A DNA stretch of 46,090 bases, taken from positions 1 through 46,090 of the forward strand of contig JAIDOW010000029.1 in assembly GCA_029063085.1 (NCBI GenBank). Reading direction: 5' to 3'. The stretch comes from Lachnospiraceae bacterium (lineage in GTDB: Bacteria; Bacillota; Clostridia; Lachnospirales; Lachnospiraceae). The notes under the pieces are model-generated. The model was not told the origin of the DNA, searched no databases, and saw nothing but the letters and a program-made list of their open reading frames with translations. A program made the position numbers and the translations under genes. The first letter of the stretch is position 1, and each line of letters opens with the position of its first letter. Shown here piece by piece: positions 40,216 to 46,090 of the stretch.

Positions 40216-41149
40216 GTTCATTATCCTCCATTACTTTCGTACTTCTATCCTCTATTTTAACTATTTTGCCATCAACAATTCGAATTACTTTATCAGCAAT
40301 TGCTGCCAGACTATCATCATGGGTAACCATTACCAATGTTTTTTTCTGTTCATTTACCACTTTTCGCATCAGATCCATCATTTCTTTCGAAGTTCTAGAA
40401 TCCAGATTACCGGTAGGCTCATCCGCAAACATAATCTTGGGATTTACTACCAATGCCCTTGCCATACCAACACGCTGCTGCTGTCCTCCCGACATCTGAT
40501 TAGGTTTATGGAATGCATGTTCCTTAAGCCCCACCAGCCTTAACATCTTCATTGCCTTTTTCAATCTTAAATCTTTTGGCATTCCCCTAAAAGACAGGGG
40601 CAATGCAACATTTTCCATTGCATTCATTGTTCCAATCAGGTTAAAGGACTGAAAAATAAATCCAACATTTTTACGTCGGAACCGTACCAGCTTATTCTCG
40701 TTCATTTTCTCGATATGGTGTCCTGCAATCACAATCTCACCCTTCGTCGGTTTTTCCAGACCCGCCAGCATATTAAGCAATGTGGATTTACCTGAACCCG
40801 AAGTACCTACGATTGCACAAAACTCGCCTTCATATACTTTAAAATCCACACCGTTTAACGCCCGTACTTTTGAGGTGCCTACTTTGTATATCTTATATAA
40901 ATCTTTCACCTCGATTACAACCCTGCGGCTATCCGCCTCTTCCTTGGTATAATCATCACTGTGTTTCTTTCCATCATCAGCCTGTTCTTCCCCGGCAAAT
41001 TCCAAAGGGGCATCTTCCTCTAAAATATCCTGTAGAACATCCGTCAGATTAGATGCAGAATCTTCTAGCTTATCTTCATTCTTTTCTCTATTCTGACCAC
41101 CAGAAAGTGTCTCTTCTAACCGGTCATTCGCTACGTCTGTAAACTTCAA
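40196..41149 (-). CDS. MacB/LolD-type ABC transporter ATPase with N-terminal acidic extension
   Basis: The 317-residue ATPase has Walker A GTSGSGKST, the signature MSGGQQQRVGMARAL and Walker B FADEPTGNLD, as in LolD/MacB ATPases. An extension of about 75 residues (rich in Glu/Asp, for example EEDAPLEFAGEEQADDGK) precedes the domain, an uncommon addition. The start is TTG at 41149 with GGAGG 7 nt upstream. An extended -10 (TGATATAAT) at 41174-41182 gives a short leader. It is the first gene of the three-gene operon; its end overlaps the next gene by 20 nt. Confidence 0.93.
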   Translation of the reverse strand: MKFTDVANDRLEETLSGGQNREKNEDKLEDSASNLTDVLQDILEEDAPLEFAGEEQADDGKKHSDDYTKEEADSRRVVIEVKDLYKIYKVGTSKVRALNGVDFKVYEGEFCAIVGTSGSGKSTLLNMLAGLEKPTKGEIVIAGHHIEKMNENKLVRFRRKNVGFIFQSFNLIGTMNAMENVALPLSFRGMPKDLRLKKAMKMLRLVGLKEHAFHKPNQMSGGQQQRVGMARALVVNPKIMFADEPTGNLDSRTSKEMMDLMRKVVNEQKKTLVMVTHDDSLAAIADKVIRIVDGKIVKIEDRSTKVMEDNEHETIKL

Positions 41150-41173
41150 TGCTCTACCTCCTAATCTTAAGTG

Positions 41174-41182
41174 ATTATATCA
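41174..41182 (-). promoter_or_regulatory. Extended -10 promoter of the MacB-type operon
   Basis: On the minus strand TGATATAAT forms a TGn-TATAAT box; the -35 (CTTTTC at 17 nt) is poor. It lies 67 nt from the end of palindromic element A. Confidence 0.55.
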
Positions 41183-41248
41183 TATTTTATAATAAAGAAA
41201 AGTTTTTTTAATATTATTCACAAATTTTTAATAAAGTTAATATATGGT

Positions 41249-41516
41249 AAATTCTTGTTTATCTTAAGAGGGACCCTTCCATACGGTGATGATGGCGGAC
41301 GCAGAAAAAGGGGGGCTTATGGTTTCCACGAGAGACACACTTGCGTTCTAACTTCAACGTAGCGGTACATAAGAGGCTATCCTGCAAGCAGGCTACCCTC
41401 TAAGTACCGACGTTTTCAGACGGGTCTCTCTTAGGATAACCATAAGCCCCCCTTTTCCTACTGTGTACCGATACCGTCGTATGGAAGCTGTTTCTTGATA
41501 CAATATACAAGAATTT
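41249..41516. repeat. Palindromic element A (about 268 bp) with 10-bp terminal inverted repeats
   Basis: The ends are AAATTCTTGT (41249-41258) and its complement ACAAGAATTT (41507-41516). Inside, successive arms pair: CTTCCATACG (41276-41285) with 41478-41487; a perfect 19-bp arm (41306-41324 with 41438-41456); GAGAGAC with GTCTCTC; then the apical core CGTAGCGGTACATAAG (41358-41373) with CTAAGTACCGACG (41400-41412) around CCTGC/GCAGG. The whole folds into one long hairpin. No coding frame is credible. It is a MITE-like or structured-RNA element; which one is open. Confidence 0.75.
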
Positions 41517-41668
41517 CTGCCCTGCGGGCGGCACGGCCGGTACTATTGTGACCAGTTAGTTATTGGACTTTAAAATATTATTTATTACCATCTGGTAAGA
41601 AAAGCAATATTTGATAAGAGACTACCTTCGGCCCAGAACAAATATCCCCTGCCCCACCGGAGGCGTAT
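41517..41668. other. GC-rich non-coding spacer between elements A and B
   Basis: About 150 bp with GC-rich blocks at both ends (CCTGCGGGCGGCACGGCCGG near 41522, and CCCCTGCCCCACCGGAGGCG near 41647) around an AT-rich middle. Short hairpins are possible (ACCATCTGGT). No gene or known motif is recognised. Confidence 0.4.
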
Positions 41669-41943
41669 AAATTCTTGTCTTGATTCTACCAGAAAACAGC
41701 TTTCAACATGAGCTTTTGAAAAGTCTAAGCTGTGGGGATATCATAGGATTCTAAGTGTAGGACTGTCTCATCCGTCGGTACTTAGCTGTCAGTCTGCATA
41801 AAATGCAGGCTGATGGCTTATGTACCGCTACGCATGCGACGGAGCGCGAGCGGGGACGGAACGTGAATCCTGTGATATCTCCACAGCGACCCCCACCACC
41901 CCCTCATGTTGAAAGCGTCCTCTAGTACGATAAACAAGAATTT
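41669..41943. repeat. Palindromic element B (275 bp), reverse orientation relative to A and C
   Basis: The ends are AAATTCTTGT (41669-41678) and ACAAGAATTT (41934-41943). Pairing arms are GCTTTCAACATGAG (41699-41712) with 41903-41916; a 22-nt arm (41730-41751) with 41865-41886; and the apical core, here on the minus strand, at 41773-41785 and 41817-41832. It is nearly identical to element C, while it shares only the ends and the core with A. Its right end runs into nadE and supplies the last codons of that gene. Confidence 0.8.
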
Positions 41944-43862
41944 TCAATCTCTTTCATCCAGAGGGCCACACAGGCATCACTTGGCATCCGTAAATCTCCT
42001 CTTGGAGACAGGGAAACTGTACCGACTTTTGGTCCGTCAGGAACACAGGAGCGTTTAAACTGCTGGGAGAAAAAGCGGCTGTAAAAAACCCTCATCCATT
42101 TTAATATAGTCTCATTATCATATATCCCTTCGAATGCCAGCTTCGCTAAACGATAAATTTTTGACGGAGCATAACCAAACCTCAATATATAGTATAAAAA
42201 GAAATCGTGTAATTCATATGGACCGACAATATCTTCCGTTTTCTGTGCAATCTCTCCATTTTCTGGCGGTAATAATTCTGGGCTTACCGGAGTTGCCAGA
42301 ATATCCTGCAATACAGAAGATGTTTTTTCATCCGTTTCATCAGCATACCAGCTCACAAGATAACGAACTAATGTCTTTGGTATGGAAACATTTACTGCAT
42401 ACATAGACATATGATCTCCATTATAAGTTGCCCAGCCAAGTGCCATCTCTGACATATCTCCTGTCCCGATTACCATTCCATTGTACTGGTTTGCAATATC
42501 CATAAGTATCTGGGTGCGCTCCCTAGCCTGTCCGTTTTCATATGTGATATCGCGCACATTCTCATCCTGTCCAATATCCTTAAAATGCTGTCTCACCGCA
42601 TCTACAATGGATATCTCCTTCAGCGTTGTTCCAAGGGACTTTGCAAGGTCCAATGCATTCTGATAAGTCCTGTCAGTGGTTCCGAAGCCCGGCATCGTAA
42701 CTGTAATAATATTTTTATGGTCTCTGCCCAGCAAATCATATGCCTTTACCGTGGCCAGTAATGCCAATGTGGAATCCAATCCTCCGGAAAGACCAATCAC
42801 CGCAGACTGACACCCTGTATGAGCCAGTCTTTTGCGAAGCCCCATTGCCTGCAATGTCAGTATTTCCTCGCAACGCTGTTTTTTCATGAAATCATCCGAT
42901 GGAACGAAAGGTGTCCGCGATATTTTTTTGGTAATCTTCGTCTCTGTCAAATCAAAACTGAAATATGTTTCATCATACCACTGTAAACCATCCTGCTTTT
43001 TCCATTCATTGTGATAGGTTGTTGTCCTACGCCGTTCTGCCGCCAGGCGTTTTATATCAATCTCTGCTATCGTAAGTCTGTGTTCAAATAATTTGGATTG
43101 TGCCAAAATACTGCCGTTTTCTGCAATAATATCATGCCCACTGTAAACCAGATCCTGCGTAGATTCATCATTTCCTGCATCCGCATAAATATATCCTGCA
43201 ATCAGTTTTGCAGACTGCATCGCTACCAGACTTCTACGATATTCCGGTTTCGTTGCAATCTCATCACTGGCAGAGGGATTACAAATAATGACAGCTCCCG
43301 CCAGAGCATGACGGATAGATGGGGAATCCGGCACCCACAAATCTTCGCAAACCTCGCCTGCTATCACAAGTCCCGGTACATTCTCACACACTAACAGATT
43401 ATCTGTTCCGAAGGATATATTCTCACATCCCGCAAGCTCCATAATCGTTTCTGTATCCTGAAAACCTGTTTCAAAATGTCTTGCCTCATAAAATTCCTGA
43501 TAATTGGGAATGTTTGTCTTTGGCACAATCATTAAGATTTCTCTTCCCTTGCAAAATACTGCCGCATTATAAAGCTTATTACGGTATACTAACGGCATTC
43601 CTACTACATACAAAATATCCATATCTACCGTCGCTTGTAATAAAGTTTTCAATGTACTAATACATCCGTTCAACAGAGCATCCTGCAAAAATAAATCTCC
43701 ACAGGTATAACCTGAAATACATAACTCTGGAAATACCAGAATCTTTACACCTTCCTGCTCTGCTTCCCTGATACATTCCAGAATCCGCTCCCCATTATAA
43801 TCACAATCCGCCACTTTAAGTTCAGGGGACGCTGCCGCCACCTTGACAAATCCATCCTTCAT
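41922..43862 (-). CDS. nadE: Glutamine-dependent NAD synthetase
   Basis: NadE amidates deamido-NAD with ammonia taken from glutamine. The 646-residue protein has an N-terminal nitrilase-type glutaminase (Glu in VFPELCISGYTCGD, Lys in PKTNIPNYQEF, Cys in AGEVCEDLW) and a C-terminal synthetase with the ATP loop VIGLSGGLDSTLALL (about 355-370). Length is normal for the long clostridial form. The last six residues (NSCLSY) and the stop codon lie within palindromic element B, so its natural C terminus may have been replaced by insertion. It follows no close gene upstream. Confidence 0.97.
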   Translation of the reverse strand: MKDGFVKVAAASPELKVADCDYNGERILECIREAEQEGVKILVFPELCISGYTCGDLFLQDALLNGCISTLKTLLQATVDMDILYVVGMPLVYRNKLYNAAVFCKGREILMIVPKTNIPNYQEFYEARHFETGFQDTETIMELAGCENISFGTDNLLVCENVPGLVIAGEVCEDLWVPDSPSIRHALAGAVIICNPSASDEIATKPEYRRSLVAMQSAKLIAGYIYADAGNDESTQDLVYSGHDIIAENGSILAQSKLFEHRLTIAEIDIKRLAAERRRTTTYHNEWKKQDGLQWYDETYFSFDLTETKITKKISRTPFVPSDDFMKKQRCEEILTLQAMGLRKRLAHTGCQSAVIGLSGGLDSTLALLATVKAYDLLGRDHKNIITVTMPGFGTTDRTYQNALDLAKSLGTTLKEISIVDAVRQHFKDIGQDENVRDITYENGQARERTQILMDIANQYNGMVIGTGDMSEMALGWATYNGDHMSMYAVNVSIPKTLVRYLVSWYADETDEKTSSVLQDILATPVSPELLPPENGEIAQKTEDIVGPYELHDFFLYYILRFGYAPSKIYRLAKLAFEGIYDNETILKWMRVFYSRFFSQQFKRSCVPDGPKVGTVSLSPRGDLRMPSDACVALWMKEIENSCLSY

Positions 43863-43955
43863 AATTGTTATCCTTTCCGGTACTCAATTTTAAATTTGTA
43901 CAGTTTTATATTTTATTATTACCCAAATAGTAAAACTATATATATGACACATACA

Positions 43956-43981
43956 AAACCCCGACATCACAGTCAGGGTTT
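43956..43981 (-). terminator. Terminator after the second Rpn gene
   Basis: AAACCC-GAC pairs with GTC-GGGTTT around a 6-nt loop with one mismatch; TTTTG follows leftward. It lies 8 nt after the stop at 43989. Confidence 0.55.
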
Positions 43982-43988
43982 ATAAACA

Positions 43989-44771
43989 TTATTCTTTCAT
44001 TTCTTTGCGAATTGACAAAATTTCATCAAGAGTTAATTTTGTTGCTTTTTGTATTGATGCATCATCTAAATTCAATACAATCATTTCTCTTACTACGTCT
44101 TTTGCATATTCTTTTGTGTATTCCTTTGCATATTCCTTTGCATATTCTTCAACAACATCACTCATATCACTATCACCTTTTCCTTCCTTAAAATAACGAA
44201 TTCTGCTGCATACCTTTGGAAACCTCTTATCATTTTCTAACTGATGGTTCTTCAATACTTTCATTAAAGCCGCAATATCCGTTCCGTCATCTATTTCCGT
44301 ATTCACATAAATCTCATGAAAACCATTATCCACAATGTCTCCGGTCTCCCTTAAAACGCGATCCACATGATATATAGTCTTTTGTCCCCCAAAATAATCA
44401 AAACTTGATATAAATACTGCATATACGTCTGGAATTTCTTTAAACTTTATTCCCTTCTCACTTATATAAGTATCCACACTAGAACCATTGTATCGAACTC
44501 TTCTTTGATGGTCATCGTCATTTTTCTTTTGTATTTCAATATTATAATAATTCCCATTAGAATCTTTACATAGCACATCTACGATTACCGATCTGCCATT
44601 AATATTACGGAGACTTTTTTGCGGAACTGCCCTGATTACTTGTAAATCCGGCATCTTTAAAATCACTTGCAAAATTTCCTCACAAAAGCCAGCATCCTCC
44701 GCCAACTTATGAAAAAATTCATCATCAATCGGTTTTAACGCATCTACTGTTTTCTGTATATTATTTTTCAT
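43989..44771 (-). CDS. Rpn-family PD-(D/E)XK nuclease
   Basis: The 260-residue protein has the nuclease core VDVLCKDSNGNYYNIEIQKK, with Asp, Glu and Gln in the D-ExQ arrangement, followed by RVRYNGSSVDTYIS and YHVDRVLRETGD, all typical of the Rpn/PDDEXK transposase-like group. A short EYAK tetrapeptide repeat (four units, about 210-230) precedes the C terminus. I chose the ATG at 44771 (AGGAGG just before it) rather than a longer TTG-led frame from 44819. It is only distantly related to the Rpn protein at 31502, so the two are not recent duplicates. Confidence 0.85.
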   Translation of the reverse strand: MKNNIQKTVDALKPIDDEFFHKLAEDAGFCEEILQVILKMPDLQVIRAVPQKSLRNINGRSVIVDVLCKDSNGNYYNIEIQKKNDDDHQRRVRYNGSSVDTYISEKGIKFKEIPDVYAVFISSFDYFGGQKTIYHVDRVLRETGDIVDNGFHEIYVNTEIDDGTDIAALMKVLKNHQLENDKRFPKVCSRIRYFKEGKGDSDMSDVVEEYAKEYAKEYTKEYAKDVVREMIVLNLDDASIQKATKLTLDEILSIRKEMKE

Positions 44772-44986
44772 ATTCCTCCTGTCCGGCAGGAAAGACTGCA
44801 ATATAGCCTGATTTTTCAATCTCCTGCCTACTGTAGTTGAAGTAAAATGAGATATATAAGCAAGAGTTTATTAGATCAGAAGAATGAAAATTCACTATGA
44901 ATCCTCACAAGAAAATCAGAAACTATTTGCTTGAAACAAGAATAGCATAGCAACAGGGAAAATGCAATAGATTTGGAAAAACAGAA

Positions 44987-45031
44987 ATAGAGAGCTGCCA
45001 CTTATTCACTGAACCTGTGACAGCTCTCTAT
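44987..45031 (-). terminator. Terminator after dapB
   Basis: An 11-bp stem (ATAGAGAGCTG / CAGCTCTCTAT) extended by CAC/GTG after a mismatch. Leftward the sequence is T-rich (TTTCTGTTTTT). The rest of 44772-44986 holds the upstream region of the Rpn gene and no gene. Confidence 0.75.
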
Positions 45032-45051
45032 CAGCTCCTTAAAAAGCACTA

Positions 45052-45813
45052 TTATTTTGCTTCTATCACATCTGACATATCATACATTCCTGCCGGCTTA
45101 CCCGCTAGAAACTTGCCGGCCTCAATAGCACCCTTTGCAAACACAGATTTAGAATATGCTGTATGATTAAAAGTAATCACCTCATCTGTTCCTGCAAAAA
45201 TCACATCATGGATTCCTACAATCGTGCCACCGCGAACCGCAGAAATACCTATTTCCTTATCCGGTCTCTTCTCTCTTCTTTCACTTCTGTCATACACATA
45301 CTGATATTCATTTCCAAGTGCTTCATTCACAGAATCTGCCAGTGCCAGTGCTGTTCCACTTGGCGCATCCACTTTCAATCTATGATGCTGTTCCACTACC
45401 TCAATATCATAACCTGCTGTACCAAATACTTTTGCTGCATCTTTTAAAAGTTTCATCAATGTATTAATACCAAGTGACATATTCGCAGACTTTAAAATTG
45501 CAATCTCCTTGCCAGCCTCTTTCATATCCAAAAGCTGTTCCTCACTAAGTCCTGTTGTACAAAGGACCACTGGCATCTTCTTTTCCCTGCTGAACTTCAG
45601 CAAATTATCGACCGCTGCTGCCACTGCAAAATCAATGATAACATCTGCTTCTATATTACAGTCAAAAATATTAGTAAATACTGGATAACCATTTTCTCTA
45701 TTATCTGCCACATCAATTCCTGCAACGATTTCAACAGCAGGATCTTGTGCTGCCAATTCTGTAATAACCTGTCCCATATGACCATTACAGCCATGCATAA
45801 TCATCTTAACCAT
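45052..45813 (-). CDS. dapB: 4-hydroxy-tetrahydrodipicolinate reductase
   Basis: DapB makes tetrahydrodipicolinate for lysine and diaminopimelate synthesis with NAD(P)H. The 253-residue protein opens with the dinucleotide motif MHGCNGHMGQVI and has the signature VEQHHRLKVDAPSGTALAL (about 139-157) with its catalytic His and Lys. AAGGAG lies 9 nt before the ATG. Upstream, only 23 nt separate the start from element C, so any promoter must lie inside or beyond that element. dapA is not next to it in the window. Confidence 0.97.
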   Translation of the reverse strand: MVKMIMHGCNGHMGQVITELAAQDPAVEIVAGIDVADNRENGYPVFTNIFDCNIEADVIIDFAVAAAVDNLLKFSREKKMPVVLCTTGLSEEQLLDMKEAGKEIAILKSANMSLGINTLMKLLKDAAKVFGTAGYDIEVVEQHHRLKVDAPSGTALALADSVNEALGNEYQYVYDRSERREKRPDKEIGISAVRGGTIVGIHDVIFAGTDEVITFNHTAYSKSVFAKGAIEAGKFLAGKPAGMYDMSDVIEAK

Positions 45814-45835
45814 CTTTTGTTCTCCTTATCTTTCT

Positions 45836-46090
45836 AAATTCTTGTTTAGCTTACTAGGGACGCTTTCAACATGAGGGGTTGGTGGAGTCCGCTGTGAAGA
45901 TATCATAGGATTCACGTTTCGTCCCCGCTTTCGCTCCGTCTCATGCGTAGCGGTACATAAGCCATCAGCCTGCATTTTATGCAGCCTGGCGGCTAAGTAC
46001 CGACGGATGAGACAGTCCTACACTTAGAATCCTATGATATCTCCACAGCTTAGACTTTTCAAAAGCTCATGTTGAAAGCTGTTTTTTGGT
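45836..46090. repeat. Palindromic element C (cut by the right window edge), inverted copy of B
   Basis: It begins with AAATTCTTGTTTAGC at 45836 and reaches the window end, about 20 nt short of its other terminus judged from B. Pairing arms GCTTTCAACATGAG (45862-45875) and CTCATGTTGAAAGC (46066-46079) and the core CGTAGCGGTACATAAG (45946-45961) with CTAAGTACCGACG (45993-46005) match B in reverse orientation. Where B has a G-T pair in the ATATCATAGGATTC arm, C has a Watson-Crick pair. Confidence 0.8.

Follow-up and report, generated by a model that had tools for sequence, protein, structure and literature searches.

Miniature inverted-repeat transposable elements (MITEs) have terminal inverted repeats, carry no gene and lie in many copies near genes, and the ends of IS200/IS605 elements and the attC sites of integrons act as folded single-stranded DNA in which unpaired bases matter. 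Repetitive extragenic palindromic (REP) sequences and their dimers (REPINs), of the GTAG and CGTC superfamilies, are described as high-copy extragenic palindromes that stand singly or as inverted pairs with a spacer (PMC3116915, PMC3733652), and DNA mini-hairpins with GNA or GNNA loops, such as d(GCGAAAGC), are described as exceptionally stable (PMC4686876). Here we analyzed palindromic elements in a 46,090-nucleotide stretch of DNA from a Lachnospiraceae bacterium (assembly GCA_029063085.1, contig JAIDOW010000029.1), hereafter the window, which is contig C34 of a draft genome (G000) of 3.34 Mb in 111 contigs. The window holds a 695-bp element made of two hairpins, the apical core of which recurs with Watson-Crick covariation in genomes across the family. 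We conclude, with a probability of roughly two-thirds, that these elements are non-autonomous mobile palindromic DNA, moved in trans, whose apex acts as folded DNA.

A sequence-only reading of the window had described three copies (A, B, and C) of a hairpin element of about 270 bp, and all three were found where it had placed them (Table 1). Hairpins A and B start with AAATTCTTGT and finish with ACAAGAATTT, and B and C, which had been called almost identical, are inverted copies that match at 94% over 233 nt. When folded as single-stranded DNA, hairpin A reached -59.6 kcal/mol (z -8.5) and hairpin B -60.4 kcal/mol (z -8.3), and in neither case was any of 200 shuffled sequences as stable. A and B point apart, and 13-bp terminal inverted repeats flank the pair as a whole. 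From 10 loci tried in the window genome, we delimited nine complete copies, which lie in different places, are 70 to 95% alike, and in some cases have a few mismatches in their 13-bp terminal repeats. Because the eight complete copies other than that in the window all share the layout of hairpin, spacer, and inverted hairpin, A and B are two halves of one 695-bp element and not independent copies, and C belongs to a second element. The single hairpin is therefore not the unit in this genome, although other genomes of the family often have hairpins that stand alone. All genome copies long enough to judge run from one hairpin through the same spacer to the other, with the exception of L018 (G000:C97:1-250), in which the terminal repeat stands twice in tandem (AAATTCTTGTTTGTCTAAATTCTTGTTTATCG) and an internal deletion joins the core to the spacer. 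Across the genome, the core sequence CGTAGCGGTACATAAG occurs 16 times without a mismatch and 15 times with one. At 36 contig ends (18 starts and 18 ends), an element end is found within 700 bp, so the assembly is probably broken by these repeats. The 695-bp element contains no open reading frame (ORF) of at least 80 aa and, like a MITE, is short, free of a transposase gene, and bounded by terminal inverted repeats.

Table 1. Positions of the double-hairpin element and of the second element end in the window
Feature	Position	Strand	Basis or remark
Complete 695-bp double-hairpin element, arm types A1 + B1	41249..41943	.	Same layout in other copies; empty orthologous site in 9/9 relatives fetched
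Terminal inverted repeat AAATTCTTGTTTA, left	41249..41261	+	
Terminal inverted repeat AAATTCTTGTTTA, right	41931..41943	-	
Hairpin A, core motif on - strand	41249..41516	-	Sequence and fold
Conserved apical core R1 in A	41336..41421	-	Covariance model match
Spacer between hairpins A and B, 152 bp, common to other copies	41517..41668	.	
Hairpin B, core motif on + strand	41669..41943	+	Sequence and fold
Conserved apical core R1 in B	41764..41854	+	Covariance model match
Element end encoding the last residues and stop codon of NAD synthetase	41922..41943	-	
Hairpin C, B type, core motif on - strand; end of a second element truncated where the contig stops	45836..46090	-	
Conserved apical core R1 in C	45924..46014	-	Covariance model match

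We represented the apex by a covariance model, R1, of 19 sequences and 23 base pairs. On the strand in which the small hairpin reads GNRA, the core is built from a stem (CGTCGGTAC/GTACCGCTACG) that leaves a CT unpaired, a TTA/TTAT internal loop, a variable apical stem and, beside the main stem, this small hairpin of two pairs, both of which covary and whose loop is GNRA in 49 of the 50 rows of a family-wide alignment. The commonest form of this mini-hairpin (12 of 50 rows) is GCGAAAGC, the same sequence as the stable DNA hairpin of PMC4686876; the hairpins described there are isolated oligonucleotides, whereas here a longer stem stands next to the hairpin, whose loop is GNRA in nearly every case. 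Across the 50 distinct rows, 93.8% of cells pair, both partners have changed in 22 of the 23 pairs, and covariation scores 0.609 compared to 0.168 after shuffling, with none of 500 shuffles reaching the observed value. This alignment was fitted to the model and hence leans towards it; in the starting alignment, which was built without structure, covariation was 0.383 compared to 0.162 for shuffled data.

Under selection on one transcribed strand, G-U pairs are expected to be common and A-C pairs rare. In the core, we counted 14 G-T, 18 A-C, and 1046 Watson-Crick cells, and in a second set of 99 rows 24, 22, and 2005, respectively; the outer stems of 66 hairpins had 158 G-T and 152 A-C pairs (p 0.78). 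The model search favors G-U over A-C, so this equality is conservative. As a share of standard pairs, G-U made up 1.3% in the core and 6.5% in 58 control tRNAs from nine genomes, including three from outside the family (p 7e-11), a control that is valid for the G-U share alone, since ARAGORN brackets nothing but pairs. We also found no significant orientation bias towards neighboring genes among 61 hairpins with flanks: relative to the element, the gene before the core ran with it in 27 cases and against it in 34 (p 0.44), and the gene after the core ran with it in 25 and against it in 35 (p 0.25). Selection on one RNA strand is not supported, as G-T and A-C are equally rare in core and outer stems. 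Since the covariation of the pairs is of the Watson-Crick kind and G-T is not preferred to A-C, the apex probably works as folded DNA, either single-stranded or cruciform, during one of the steps by which the element moves or is copied. The sequence-only reading knew no named element of this structure, and a search of Rfam agreed, with no match in the window and only chance-level matches on the element. Of 20 related loci, two have sub-threshold matches to the Clostridiales-1 RNA (RF01699) close to the core, namely, L098 at 1121-1263 (40.9 bits, cut-off 48, about 240 bp from the core match) and L104 (24 bits, the end of the match overlapping the core), whereas the window element has none.

The R1 model, of the kind the sequence-only reading had proposed for counting copies in relatives, matched every one of the 26 genomes in the genus, between 1 and 100 times each and 31 times in the window genome. 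It also matched 110 of 299 sampled genomes of the family and 11 of 391 genomes in a class-wide sample, all 11 of them in the same family; stricter filters were applied to these two samples, with the loss of weak matches. The carrier family is probably Lachnospiraceae, and the searches of genome, genus, and family exclude the possibility, raised at the outset, that related genomes have no further copies. An exact core pattern occurred in at least 112 stretches in named genomes and in no viral contig, on which ground we rejected a viral origin. Among the 80 exact-pattern matches listed, 52 are titled Lachnospiraceae, nine name Acetatifactor, Kineothrix, Herbinix, or Lachnospira, and five come from one assembly labeled Gastranaerophilales, another phylum, a label that may be wrong for that assembly; the remainder have broad clostridial labels or none. 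Kineothrix is itself a member of Lachnospiraceae.

Most matches outside the window genome are single hairpins. Where matches lie within 400 bp of each other, we tallied 17 divergent, 3 same-direction, and no convergent neighbors, so that 17 of 20 are divergent and, as with REPINs, inverted pairs occur together with single units. Further pairs outside this tally were one divergent (G010) and six same-direction, all in G135. The divergent paired layout recurs in several genera. At about 1230-1680 of L117 (G314:C22), a divergent hairpin pair stands among repeats with the palindrome GGGGACTGTCCC or variants of it. A secY-like gene is closely followed by a core hairpin in three species of the genus (L080, L081, and L083 in G006, G011, and G015), which suggests that these copies are old and vertically kept.

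The joined flanks of four complete copies and part of a fifth were searched against the genus and found matches in all 26 genomes. For the window site, we fetched nine relatives whose match crossed or came near the junction, and in each of them the flanks are present with no element between them; since the site is empty in all nine, the window copy is, as judged by this comparison, an insertion. In G010, the spacing measured by eye equals that of the window minus the whole element, and therefore no target duplication is visible against this empty site, the flanks of which have diverged. At this site, the element entered the NAD synthetase gene at its 3' end, and the protein now ends EIENSCLSY, with the stop codon inside the element; in the nine relatives, the protein ends at stops of their own.

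The observation that shared ends and core go with different arms and the same fold was borne out across the genome. There are two left-arm types (A1 and A2) and two right-arm types (B1 and B2), and all four combinations occur among the nine complete copies (three A1B1, two A2B1, three A1B2, and one A2B2), while both arms differ between A1 and A2 and the apical core between them is nearly identical. In G024 and G025, the outer stem varies by locus, yet both arms of one locus match at 17 of 18 loci (arm score, 26.2 for own partners versus 12.0; own partner ranked first in 12 and second in 5; 0 of 20,000 permutations). Some loci are orthologous between these two species. By eye, one such site has its interior in the opposite orientation relative to the flanks, the arms appear swapped at a second, and a third has two substitutions, each present in both arms. 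We infer that arms are at times copied from each other and that resident copies otherwise decay.

The terminal repeats differ by subfamily, being AAATTCTTGTTTA in the window genome, the related TAAATTATGGTTTA in G131, and AGGCGATTGCGAAACTCTTC in G119. Direct repeats of 10 to 12 bp were seen by eye at four of nine G119 copies, where the flank score was reached in 6 of 5000 permutations, and they suggest that a classical transposase acts on the G119 copies. The model of the REP-associated tyrosine transposase (RAYT), NF047646, had no match in the window genome. Over the 299 family genomes, RAYTs were found in 37 of 110 carriers and 86 of 189 non-carriers (odds ratio 0.61, p 0.051), and Y1 transposases (E 1e-10) in 52 and 101, respectively (p 0.34); Y1 was absent from 58 of the 110 carriers and from 13 of the 28 genomes with at least 11 listed matches. 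Neither is associated with carriers, and both are therefore unlikely mobilizers. An all-against-all comparison of ORFs from the fetched loci gave small clusters only and no recurrent neighbor gene, and nine neighbor proteins checked in Pfam are ordinary cellular proteins, for example, MnmE, SecY, HydF, and a chaperonin. At the terminal-repeat sites inspected in G000 and G131, which are drafts and were covered in part, no gene-bearing element lay between such ends, so the possibility that the copies are the ends of a known insertion sequence found no support there. At L186, a degenerate element end lies beside unrelated genes, as judged from the ORF list.

In the mechanism that we favor, an element with terminal inverted repeats and no gene would be moved in trans by an enzyme that recognizes folded DNA. 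The unit would be a hairpin with a conserved apex, two of which, pointing apart, would form the single 695-bp element of the window genome, and the apex would act as single-stranded or cruciform DNA when the element moves or is copied. Movement may be continuing, and resident copies would have no host function. Several observations weigh against this reading. Neither a mobilizing enzyme nor an autonomous relative was found in the RAYT, Y1, neighbor-gene, and terminal-repeat searches, and the window genome does contain one Y1 transposase. There is no target duplication at any of the nine complete G000 copies (score, 4.00 for own flanks and 4.04 for others), whereas G119 has its direct repeats, so that looking for duplications gave a different answer in the two genomes. 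Tandem same-direction arrays occur in G135, and GNRA in 49 of 50 mini-hairpin loops fits RNA too. At L038 (G018:C7), judged by eye, similar ends and a similar spacer start accompany a short hairpin without the core motif, and the ends seem to have outlived the core. Finally, in four orthologous pairs, 32 differences at paired positions break pairs, 3 make pairs, and only 5 are double changes, a tally that uses the fold of one partner and includes one pair with a truncated partner; the evidence for in-place compensatory change is mixed.

The elements could instead be ordinary miniature transposons of several cut-and-paste transposases, in which the terminal repeats act and the core is a passenger or stabilizes the palindrome. 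This explanation, which we hold to be possible but do not favor, would fit the terminal repeats that differ among G000, G131, and G119, the direct repeats at four of nine G119 copies, and the G018 element that lacks a core, and the elements share with MITEs their terminal inverted repeats, absence of a gene, and many copies near genes. However, a strictly covarying core is kept in 110 of 299 family genomes despite changing arms and ends, and no transposase gene lies between such ends at the places examined. Unlike MITEs, moreover, these elements are paired over nearly their whole length, have a folded core common to subfamilies with different ends, show no duplication in the window genome, and had no parent transposon at the places examined. 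REPINs are similar in architecture, with inverted pairs and single units, high copy number, an extragenic position, compensatory changes, and no gene of their own (as described in PMC3116915). Movement of paired hairpins as single-stranded DNA by a RAYT or another Y1 transposase, to which the one Y1 gene of the window genome might point, is nevertheless very unlikely here: NF047646 has no match in this genome, RAYTs are found in a smaller share of carriers (37/110) than of non-carriers (86/189), and Y1 shows no association (52/110 versus 101/189, none in 13 of 28 genomes rich in matches), which also separates these elements from IS200/IS605. The hairpins are 209 bp in G119 and 268 to 275 bp in the window, several times the 20 to 40 bp of REPs; they conserve a branched core, and the G000 ends read AAATTC with no GTAG or CGTC tag. 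The elements resemble REPINs or MITEs in their working, but the match to either definition is so far incomplete.

A structured non-coding RNA, or an element copied through RNA, with the hairpin selected in the transcript, would account for the GNRA loops, the conserved internal loops, and the strong covariation. We consider it improbable, given that G-T and A-C are equally rare in core and outer stems, that the G-U share is low compared to tRNAs, that orientation is unbiased, and that no Rfam family lies on the element. If anything slightly less probable is a palindrome that serves the host as a terminator, mRNA stabilizer, or protein-binding site. The mostly intergenic location would suit it (the core overlaps an ORF of at least 100 aa in 9 of 61 hairpins, by a crude ORF caller), but the site is empty in relatives, there is no orientation bias to genes, no terminator-like site was found in 41100-42000, and copy number runs from 1 to 100 within one genus.

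Among the neighbors of the window elements, hairpin C lies 22 bp upstream of the dapB start codon, and a 22-bp inverted repeat just downstream of dapB (44987-45031) is possibly the dapB terminator. Between the two window copies, 43989-44819 on the - strand encodes a protein of 276 aa, the transposase domain of which belongs to the PD-(D/E)XK nuclease family (PF12784). A tblastn relative of this protein was found at 1 of 499 other loci (L217), and we rejected it as a constant companion of the elements. The element itself seems to be a target for another small palindrome: the complete copy at L015 2403-3174, 772 bp long, has an insert that resembles a hairpin of its own (GGCGGCAAGTTTGTTGCCACC ... 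GGTGGCAAC), and a similar insert is present near ~840 of L064, in another element end of the window genome.

We found no description of the element in the literature searched, which was limited to open access and hence is no proof of absence. It is a tentative and doubtful suggestion that these elements form a new class of mobile DNA, a lineage spread over the family and defined by a branched, GNRA-capped DNA fold that a Lachnospiraceae enzyme would read as a single strand or a cruciform; arms and ends would be replaceable as long as they pair, and the two arms of a copy would be homogenized in place, one serving as the template for the other. What surprised us was a folded core that is family-wide and covaries by Watson-Crick changes with hardly any G-U, on elements whose ends and arms change. 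Covariation is usually taken as evidence of RNA structure; here, the 22 covarying pairs among the 23 of the core lack the G-U signature, so that selection seems to act on a DNA structure, and counting G-T against A-C offers a simple test for other candidate RNAs. For Lachnospiraceae, the carriers and non-carriers make up a bounded set of genomes in which to seek the mobilizing enzyme, and the elements can alter the ends of genes, as at NAD synthetase.

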